The translations under genes and the position numbers were made by a program. DNA of 64,000 nucleotides from Alienimonas californiensis (GTDB taxonomy: Bacteria > Planctomycetota > Planctomycetia > Planctomycetales > Planctomycetaceae): assembly GCF_007743815.1 (NCBI RefSeq), contig NZ_CP036265.1:5153823-5217822 (forward strand), written 5' to 3'. Shown piece by piece: positions 18,844 to 52,476 of this stretch (position 1 is its first letter; each line of letters starts with the position of its first letter). The notes under the pieces are model-generated. The model was not told the origin of the DNA. It searched no databases and worked only from the letters and a program-made list of their open reading frames with translations.

Positions 18844-18861
18844 TCTTCGTCCCTCCCTCCA

Positions 18862-18885
18862 GGCCGGAGGCGTGCTTCCGGCTTA
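18862..18885. repeat. REP-like imperfect palindrome after rplY
   Basis: GCCGGAGGC and GCTTCCGGC face each other around GT and are followed by TTAGGCGG. It is a variant of the palindrome at 35077, 35732 and 52441, placed about 18 nt after the rplY stop codon. Confidence 0.5.
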
Positions 18886-18925
18886 GGCGGGGCGTCGCAG
18901 GGGACTGCGGCGCAGGAGCGATGCG

Positions 18926-30726: not shown

Positions 30727-30768
30727 ACACACTCCGCCGCGTCGTCTCCCAAGCCGCGTGGGGCTTCC

Positions 30769-30808
30769 CCCCGGTTCGCCGTCGCCTAGCGGCGACGGCG
30801 AACCGGGG
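30769..30808 (-). terminator. Perfect 18-bp hairpin downstream of argJ
   Basis: Arms at 30769-30786 and 30791-30808 pair perfectly around a TAGC loop. It begins 10 nt after the argJ stop. There is no U-tract, so it may act as an mRNA 3'-end stabiliser or Rho-linked terminator rather than a classical intrinsic terminator. It separates argJ from the putA promoter. Confidence 0.65.
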
Positions 30809-30818
30809 AGGCCGGAGA

Positions 30819-33842: not shown

Positions 33843-35060
<1,218 letters not shown>

Positions 35061-35076
35061 ATCCCTCAACCATCCA

Positions 35077-35110
35077 CGTCTAAGCCGGAGCCATGGCTCC
35101 GGCTTAGACG
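35077..35110. repeat. REP-like palindrome, left flank of the transposase gene
   Basis: A perfect 34-bp palindrome with core AAGCCGGAGCCATGGCTCCG. It starts 16 nt after the cupin gene stop and 18 bp before the transposase gene. As RNA it would form a long hairpin after the cupin mRNA. Confidence 0.8.
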
Positions 35111-35128
35111 AGCGATGAAGAGCACGCC

Positions 35129-35719
35129 ATGAGCCCGCTCCCCGCGTCCGAACAACCCGCCCGTTGGTGGTTGGTGACGTTCAACACGCACGGGACCTGG
35201 CTGCCGGGCGATCCGCGAGGTTTCCAAACCTGGCGCGGCCGCCTGCACGTCCCTCCGCCGCAGCGATACGCAAAGCCCGGCGAAGCGACTTACGACCCCG
35301 CCCCCCACCGCCTTCGTCACGCCGCCGCACAACGGATCATGAAGGGAGACCCCGTCCACCTGACTCCCAAGCAGCAGGGCTGTTGCCTGGAGGCGATGGT
35401 GGAGGAGTTCGACGTGATCGGGGTGAAGCCGTCGATCCTGGCGCTCAATGACTGGCACGTGCACACGTTGATCCGCGTCGGCGGCTACCCGATTCGCACC
35501 GCCGTCGGACGCCTCAAGGCCGCTGCGAGCCGGTTATTGTCTCAATACGAAATCAAGCCCGACAAGGTGTGGGCGCAGGGCTGCCATATGAAGAGCAAAG
35601 ACGACGACGGAGCGGTTCTCGCCGCGTTCCAGTACGTTCGCAATCACGAATCGGAGGGAGCGTTGGTTCACACCTGGTTCCACCCGCTCGGCGGCGACGT
35701 CGAAAGCAAACCACGCTAA
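35129..35719 (+). CDS. REP-associated tyrosine transposase (Y1/HUH family)
   Basis: 196 residues. WWLVTFNTHGTWLPGDPRG is the typical opening of one RAYT-like group. The HUH metal motif is NDWHVHTLIRV (His110-Val-His112), and the nucleophile candidate is Tyr170 in AAFQYVRNHE, with Tyr140 as an alternative. It would nick and join single-stranded REP DNA through a 5'-phosphotyrosine. Intact length suggests that it could be active. Flanking palindromes at 35077 and 35732 are its probable substrates. Confidence 0.8.
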   Translation: MSPLPASEQPARWWLVTFNTHGTWLPGDPRGFQTWRGRLHVPPPQRYAKPGEATYDPAPHRLRHAAAQRIMKGDPVHLTPKQQGCCLEAMVEEFDVIGVKPSILALNDWHVHTLIRVGGYPIRTAVGRLKAAASRLLSQYEIKPDKVWAQGCHMKSKDDDGAVLAAFQYVRNHESEGALVHTWFHPLGGDVESKPR

Positions 35720-35731
35720 CTCATAATTCGT

Positions 35732-35765
35732 CGCCCAAGCCGGAGCCATGGCTCCGGCTTAGGCG
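35732..35765. repeat. REP-like palindrome, right flank of the transposase gene
   Basis: Same 24-bp core as the left copy (35737-35760), extended by CGCC/GGCG arms with one mismatched pair. It begins 12 nt after the transposase stop and precedes the TIM-barrel gene. Confidence 0.8.
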
Positions 35766-35798
35766 TGCGGCCAATCACGACATCTACGAAAGAATGAT

Positions 35799-36830
<1,032 letters not shown>

Positions 36831-52362: not shown

Positions 52363-52440
52363 ATCGTGGGACTCGTTGGGGGTTGCGGCCATCTTCGCGT
52401 CCCGCGGCCCGTCTGTCAGCCCCACGAAAATCCAGCGCCC

Positions 52441-52465
52441 CAGCCGGAGCCACGGCTCCGGCCTG
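52441..52465. repeat. REP-like palindrome after the cyclic-nucleotide-binding gene
   Basis: GCCGGAGCC-AC-GGCTCCGGC, the same core as the 35077/35732 palindromes with the central AT changed to AC. It lies 12 nt beyond the stop at 52477 (minus strand). Confidence 0.7.
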
Positions 52466-52476
52466 CGCCGAAGGAC

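Follow-up and report, generated by a model that had tools for sequence, protein, structure and literature searches.

A RAYT-type gene and its CAAG-footed palindromes at an operon slot shared by Alienimonas californiensis and planctomycete relatives of at least two orders

REP-associated tyrosine transposases (RAYTs) are described as vertically inherited single-copy genes (PMC8049555), which together with recurring repetitive extragenic palindromes (REPs) at their flanks form units termed REPtrons. The activity of TnpA_REP proteins is influenced by the GTAG motif as well as by the palindrome (PMC8266576), and feet other than GT[AG]G have been recorded for some subclasses. RAYTs flanked by non-GTAG repeats were described (PMC3733652), as were syntenic RAYTs with differing REPs in related strains, together with a model of REP decay once the RAYT is lost (PMC3686654). 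Class 3 of the TnpA_Y1 proteins occurs mainly in Planctomycetes, Acidobacteria and Proteobacteria and is defined by the motif Y----Q and a CnGA foot (PMC6006769). The genera Alienimonas and Stratiformator are assigned to the Planctomycetaceae, order Planctomycetales (PMC10509075). Here, a stretch of 64,000 nucleotides from Alienimonas californiensis (contig NZ_CP036265.1, positions 5,153,823 to 5,217,822), referred to as the window, was analyzed for a RAYT-type gene framed by two palindromes.

It is likely that this unit is a REPtron that was inherited vertically at one operon slot, with RAYT and repeat changing together as pairs, and that it was lost in most lineages. The slot has probably been occupied since before Planctomycetales and Pirellulales split. 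Eight distinct carriers of an orthologous RAYT were found, and at all eight loci the gene lies on one strand between a cupin-like gene and a TIM-barrel gene, in the order cupin-like, RAYT, TIM barrel, in genera of at least two orders. In the following, G-numbers denote genomes (G000 being the window genome and G001 its same-genus congener) and L-numbers fetched loci; the carriers are G000, G013, G022 (L049), G336, G456 (L048, SJ86), G200, G101 and L050 (bin24). The window genome and the Pirellulales genomes G101, G200, G336 and G456 belong to different orders: the 396 genomes listed for the latter order include no member of the window's family. Searches of the A. californiensis genome covered 5,475,215 bases on one contig. 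The window RAYT is a single-copy gene at a stable locus, the next best gene of the genome being 36% identical, and it is flanked by repeats that recur elsewhere in the genome, both of which are hallmarks of REPtrons. A third hallmark, a GT[AG]G foot 5' of the hairpin, is lacking; instead, a foot of the C(C/T)AAG type occurs at one or both repeat ends at all eight ortholog loci. The features of the window are as follows, where Y-x3-H denotes a His four residues after the Tyr (Y+4):

35129..35719, plus strand: RAYT/TnpA_Y1-type HUH protein of the Y-x3-H clade; 196 aa, ATG start, open frame
35456..35464, plus strand: HUH motif codons H110-V111-H112; both His invariant in eight orthologs
35633..35647, plus strand: Y169 to H173, predicted nucleophile Tyr and His at Y+4; invariant in eight orthologs
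35077..35110, no strand: left flank palindrome, 17+17, 100% complementary; CTAAG-type foot at both ends
35732..35765, no strand: right flank palindrome, 17+17, 16 of 17 pairs (94%)
33843..35060, plus strand: upstream syntenic gene, cupin-like (label by reading, no Pfam match); present in 45 of 59 relatives
35799..36830, plus strand: downstream syntenic gene, xylose-isomerase-like TIM barrel (PF01261, E 4e-13)
18856..18889, no strand: dispersed decayed palindrome copy (covariance model E 1.4e-4)
52436..52469, no strand: dispersed palindrome copy (3 mismatches to the 24-mer; covariance model E 3.2e-8)

The initial annotation had proposed an intact RAYT gene with the HUH motif WHVH and a C-terminal Tyr, framed by two near-identical 34-bp palindromes and forming a REPtron-like unit whose palindrome recurs. 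All of this was borne out: the frame is open and encodes NDWHVH with H110 and H112 and, C-terminally, FQYVRNHE with Y169; the 38-nt flanks share 89% identity and match dispersed palindromes, so that they are related to other copies; and a covariance model places the palindrome at 38 sites genome-wide. The proposed position between sugar-metabolism genes stands for the xylose-isomerase-like TIM barrel and for the GFO/IDH/MocA oxidoreductase gene 3' of it, both recognized by Pfam; the upstream gene is without a Pfam match, and the term 'inserted' is not supported, the slot being the same in all eight orthologs found. Among the two further copies it had listed, the one at 52441 is real, and the one at 18862 was not found at three mismatches and appears with the covariance model as a weak, decayed member.

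The 48-nt flanks of the gene are 83% complementary to each other, but a palindrome lies inside each. As single-stranded DNA, the left palindrome folds with -18.5 kcal/mol (z -8.5) and the right one with z -5.8 and -6.1 for its two strands. A palindrome 24-mer, searched with up to three mismatches, gave three matches in the window versus a mean of 0.00 in shuffled sequence, and the match is therefore not expected by chance. The longest stem of the window (loops up to 8 scanned) belongs to a hairpin at 30767-30810 with a 20-bp stem and a 4-base loop, which is unrelated to the palindrome family.

In domain searches with the encoded protein, Pfam Y1_Tnp scored 16.1 bits, under the 23-bit cut-off, and NCBIfam REP_Tyr_transpos did not match. 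Its AlphaFold model (eight aligned sequences, mean predicted local distance difference test score 74) superimposes on IS608 TnpA with Z 12.5 and a root-mean-square deviation (rmsd) of 2.6 over 108 residues, and on the TnpA_REP structure 4er8 with Z 11.1 and an rmsd of 3.5 over 128 residues. Thg1 (Z up to 9.0) and viral Rep/NS1 nucleases (Z up to 8.9) rank below the TnpA entries and were read as sharing the fold only. Residues H110, H112, Y169 and H173 are invariant across all eight orthologs, and the protein thus combines HUH and catalytic Tyr in a TnpA fold, as expected for the TnpA_Y1/Y1_Tnp superfamily.

Furthermore, a tree and motif table of 43 relatives was compiled, comprising the eight orthologs and others; 40 of 57 non-ortholog loci were tried, and five of the 40 were dropped because of stops in the matched stretch. 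At Y+4, 29 relatives have His and ten have Gln, the position lying past the end of the matched stretch in four. A branch supported at 100/100 separates the 29 Y-x3-H proteins from the rest, and the eight RAYT orthologs are a clade among them (96/92). NCBIfam REP_Tyr_transpos matches 30 of the 43 relatives (E up to 0.01) and Pfam Y1_Tnp 23. The family profile aligns the His at Y+4 with the Gln of YIENQ in IS608, a metal ligand; H173 may accordingly have a metal role. In 16 of 24 wider Y-x3-H relatives (L053, L056, L058-L061, L065-L070, L072, L073, L075, L077), the stretch common to both flanks is longer than in any of 20 shuffles, as it is in 11 of 15 Q-type relatives. An A-rich foot such as AACGCC, AAAGCC or CAAGGC starts the shared stretch in L059, L060, L067, L068, L072 and L073.

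The known systems resemble this unit in different respects. REPtrons with GTAG-footed REPs, known from E. coli, Pseudomonas and Stenotrophomonas, are alike in the HUH-Tyr fold (4er8), the single-copy gene, the recurring flank repeats and the two-hairpin REP arrangements (REPINs) of G101; they differ in that the window system has a CCAAG/CTAAG foot, a His at Y+4 in place of the N of Y-x-x-x-NP and a single symmetric hairpin. Class 3 of TnpA_Y1 likewise comprises planctomycete RAYT-like proteins with flanking structures lacking GT[AG]G, and in some genomes these structures are numerous (PMC6006769). The class-3 label was nevertheless rejected, since the protein has YVRNHE and not Y----Q, and the foot is C(C/T)AAG and not CnGA; in the tree, the Y-x3-H clade is separate from the Q-type clade. 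Likewise, the 11 rows of Table 1 in Quentin et al. 2018 (PMC6006769) list Y motifs with Q or NP, and none with His at Y+4. TIRtrons with their TIRYT genes combine tyrosine transposase genes with non-GTAG flank repeats, some of them self-complementary and moderately abundant (PMC3733652); by their description, the repeats are long terminal inverted repeats, some with a GGGGWSAS motif. The RAYT orthogroups reported in PMC3686654 are similarly syntenic with differing REPs, but they lie within the Pseudomonas fluorescens complex and Stenotrophomonas, whereas here genera of at least two orders are involved. Finally, TnpA proteins of IS200/IS605 elements (IS608, ISDra2) share the fold, their HUH and Tyr align, and the His at Y+4 lies opposite the IS608 Gln; unlike these elements, the window gene shows no tnpB-like neighbour, is not multicopy and occupies a fixed locus, and neither near-identical copies nor empty sites were found. 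Neither a RAYT class combining His at Y+4 with a CAAG foot nor a REPtron slot common to several orders was encountered in the literature searched, which was mostly without subscription papers, and the class is apparently uncatalogued.

Within each genome the two flank repeats agree, and between lineages the palindrome sequence differs, with matches on both sides in six of the eight orthologs. The flank pair is AAGCCGGAGCC-AT-GGCTCCGGCTT in G000, AAGGCGACGAC..GTCGTCGCCTT in G013 and G022, and AAGCCGACGGC-AT-GCCGTCGGCTT in SJ86 and G336, with changes in one arm of the upstream copy in G022 and in single bases of the copies in G013 and G336. A compound unit of about 110 nt occurs on both sides of the RAYT in G200. 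The repeat of G101 is a REPIN, in which two hairpins lie a few bases apart, with CCAAG before the first and CTTGG after the second, and REPIN-like hairpin pairs also occur in G022 (L196, L206). The arms of the simple perfect palindrome correspond to the outer arms of this REPIN arrangement, and both ends of the palindrome carry a foot. The 34-bp palindrome is probably a collapsed REPIN, which may have arisen via slippage between two directly repeated arms. Full REPINs were not seen among the covariance hits in G000, all of which span 33-36 nt, and no search aimed at REPINs was made; the sole exact match of G000 to the G101-type REP pattern (L194) was judged by eye to be coding sequence.

In order to count the repeats, a 22-mer was searched with up to two mismatches, giving 14 copies in G000 and none for a reversed-pattern control. 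A covariance model (R1) built from 14 G000 copies was then run on 20 genomes (E up to 0.01, strand hits collapsed by hand). In G000, it identified 38 distinct sites from 73 strand hits, 36 of them besides the flanks. Matches were obtained in eight of the 20 genomes, the others being G001 (12 sites), G021 (5), G013 (5), G456 (3, two being RAYT flanks), G336 (2, one a flank), G015 (1) and G101 (1). The 12 genomes without a match are nine gene-less family members and three carriers, namely G022, G200 and the genome of L050. The RAYT is absent from all twelve family relatives counted, i.e., G001, G021, G015 and the nine zero-site members, so that the expectation that the palindrome should be scarcer in relatives lacking the gene (12, 5, 1 and nine times 0 versus 38) is upheld, with an imperfect link in G420, G336 and G456. 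The G101-type REP pattern, counted across 396 genomes of that order, occurs 83 times in G101 and 12 times in G200, both carriers, and at most five times elsewhere except in G420; the reversed pattern gave 0-3 matches per genome and none in G101, G200 and G420. Gene and copy number thus go together clearly in G000 and G101 and modestly in G200, and the REP pattern shows no such link for G336 and G456.

Four further RAYT-like genes of G000 are 27-36% identical to the window RAYT. Among the five, only the window gene is bracketed by the window palindrome within 250 bases; the other four were rejected as owners of the palindrome, since each has different repeats within 250 bases on each side. The RAYT-like genes of L018 (G000:C1:954681-958121) and L019 (G000:C1:3810708-3814130) carry a CCCGAAGCG..AGCGAGG repeat in their flanks, which translates through overlapping frames as TRSVSEG- or SPKRKRG-like peptides, and the gene of L019 sits between trpB-like and trpA-like genes (names by reading).

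As for age, six of the 12 G001 palindromes lie at positions orthologous to G000 palindromes and therefore predate the split of the two species; the other six could not be placed. The shared pair L272/L169 rests on downstream homology, its upstream side aligning poorly. At two comparable positions (G001 C92:1532; G000 2518668 in L249), the intergenic DNA of G000 and G001 does not align and no insertion boundary was readable. In the pair L247/L171, both arms changed together. Across 47 G000 and G001 copies (46 distinct), arm positions formed 89.1% standard pairs versus 24.6-47.5% in slid structures, and the covariation score was 0.233 versus 0.112 +/- 0.010 after shuffling, with both-side changes in 62 cells versus 31.2. 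For this count, three of the 38 G000 sites (1828072, 975535, 5172678) were omitted for want of a gap-free register, and the sites G000 2571023 and G001 C139:2207 were shifted by 2. The covariation is evidence of kept symmetry, not of a rate, and subfamily ancestry contributes to it.

Regarding descent, profile searches yielded six genomes above 200 bits among 397 genomes of the class, the next one scoring 98 bits, and four genomes at E up to 1e-40 among 396 of G101's order. The trees of the cupin-like and TIM genes show no grouping by RAYT presence, and the cassette has thus not spread as one block. Transfer of the whole cassette was rejected: the TIM tree, which appears mixed with paralogs, rejects the eight carriers as one clade (approximately unbiased test, p-AU 2e-64), and the cupin-like tree, in which the RAYT-less rows outside the window's family are G055 and G039 only, requires at least four label changes. 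Moreover, the branching G200,(bin24,(SJ86,G336)) is common to the wider RAYT tree and the cupin-like tree. Constraining the Pirellulales rows together was not rejected (p-AU 0.09), nor was uniting the three Planctomycetales rows (0.107). For SJ86 versus G336, the only pair tested, synonymous divergence (dS, NG86) was 1.50 for the RAYT, 1.41 for the cupin-like and 1.80 for the TIM gene. Judging from these sequence comparisons, we conclude that the RAYT was probably passed on vertically and lost many times; the main rival is repeated targeting of the gap.

Several observations weigh against vertical inheritance of matched RAYT-repeat pairs. The distribution of the gene is very patchy (6/397 and 4/396 genomes), and vertical descent therefore requires many losses. 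The eight-row RAYT tree is weakly resolved, only SJ86 with G336 being firm, and the best wider RAYT tree leaves the Pirellulales rows un-united. Model R1 was trained on G000 copies and so favours G000; it finds nothing in the carriers G022, G200 and the genome of L050, whose repeats differ in sequence. G420 has 13 REP-pattern matches and no ortholog detected, and the carriers G336 and G456 have one match each; for G420, which is of the same family as G101 (f9), loss of the RAYT, a missing contig or another enzyme come into question. In G013, the flank palindrome was seen at the flanks only, and of the three dispersed pattern matches, two belong to the Alienimonas kind and one to the SJ86 kind, an argument against strict gene-repeat matching there. 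In addition, the flanks of L050 are degraded, the repeat of G101 is present downstream only, and one palindrome copy of G000 lies about 0.9 kb from the RAYT-like gene of L019, past the trpA-like gene. Movement was never seen directly, and the copies give no sign of recent movement.

The strongest rival holds that the RAYTs of the clade arrived separately in each lineage, always into the gap between the cupin-like and the TIM gene, perhaps drawn by an existing palindrome. The patchy distribution would suit such repeated targeting, as would the identities of 41-48% between the window RAYT and each of the seven other orthologs irrespective of order. In a survey of the slot, among 30 fetched cupin-like loci, 21 have an adjacent TIM gene (at least 40% identity), three of them with a RAYT. 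The 18 RAYT-less gaps comprise one with a solo CAAG-footed palindrome (G008, L128), five with other hairpins and 12 without a stem of at least 10, and the G008 gap, which has one palindrome and no RAYT, counts in favour of repeated targeting. The solo palindrome itself (18+18, CCAAG feet, one mismatch) could be what a lost REPtron left behind or a target that was already present. Against separate arrivals stand the branching common to the wider RAYT and cupin-like trees, the similar dS of all three genes in the pair compared, and the gap palindromes, which differ between lineages, so that no constant target is seen. On balance, we regard repeated targeting as unlikely, yet as the alternative that survives best.

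Rather less probable is that the palindromes serve the host, for example as bidirectional terminators or protein-binding sites, and that the RAYT lies next to them by accident. Several dispersed copies do lie directly 3' of stop codons, a few of them between convergent frames, and covarying arms would also be expected of a hairpin terminator. However, the flanks match in six of eight orthologs with lineage-specific sequence, no T run follows either flank palindrome of the window RAYT, G101 has two-hairpin REPINs, and the highest copy numbers are found in the carriers G000 and G101, with G420, G336, G456 and G013 as exceptions. In three of 12 dispersed copies examined (L002, L004, L013; palindrome at 1501-1522), the frame running into the palindrome has its stop codon in the CTAAG foot, as the TAA.

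A recent mobile unit, in which RAYT and flanks arrived together lately as an IS200-like element with the palindromes as its ends, is very improbable. It would account for the nearly identical flanks, the intact frame and the slot without a RAYT in the same genus, and recent activity had been suggested by the initial annotation. This suggestion found no support, as the same slot and strand are shared by all eight orthologs found, the gene is single copy with other RAYT-like genes at most 36% identical, and half of the congener's palindromes are old. The empty locus that a relative might have offered did not materialize either: no RAYT ortholog was found in G001, where window positions 35070-35798 are replaced by about 75 unrelated bases with a different hairpin (the gap measures 86 bases and is unrelated to the window's), and no clean pre-insertion site was readable. 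The recent-arrival reading is thus largely refuted by the shared locus. Least credible of all is a functionless leftover, for which the absence of the gene from most relatives and the weak Pfam match might speak, since HUH, Tyr and His are invariant in the eight orthologs, the frames are open to the terminal stop in all eight, and the ratio of nonsynonymous to synonymous divergence (dN/dS, NG86) is 0.13 in one pair (SJ86 vs G336).

Returning to the vertically inherited REPtron, its mechanism can be outlined as follows. The RAYT would be a single-copy domesticated enzyme whose cognate repeat brackets the gene and is scattered elsewhere at low copy number. It may bind the repeat hairpin in single-stranded DNA, for instance on the lagging strand, and may be guided by a 5' CAAG-like foot where other RAYTs read GTAG. 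Y169 is predicted to cleave at a metal site formed by H110, H112 and probably H173, and the enzyme would thereby copy or move REPs. Joint change of enzyme and repeat would leave each lineage with its own matched pair. A REPIN (CCAAG-hairpin-spacer-hairpin-CTTGG) could collapse by arm slippage to one hairpin with a foot at both ends, and the copies seen in Alienimonas would be of this type; many are old, and they are probably little mobile now. A more far-reaching proposal is advanced tentatively, at slightly less than even confidence: the unit may define a distinct, unnamed RAYT class with a three-histidine metal site and a CAAG foot, in which one REPtron has occupied the same operon slot ever since Planctomycetales and Pirellulales shared an ancestor, its repeat being re-specified as lineages diverged and many losses leaving solo palindromes (G008) and relic repeats (the congener).

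The syntenic cases described in PMC3686654 stay within species groups. Eight orthologs at a fixed locus, most with their own matched repeat, represent a natural series for the study of enzyme-repeat co-change, in which swaps of protein and hairpin between genera could show which residues select foot and stem. Furthermore, the series bears on the ability of Y1 HUH enzymes to work with His at the position that Gln or Asn occupies in their known relatives, and on whether REPINs often collapse to short perfect palindromes such as those of A. californiensis.
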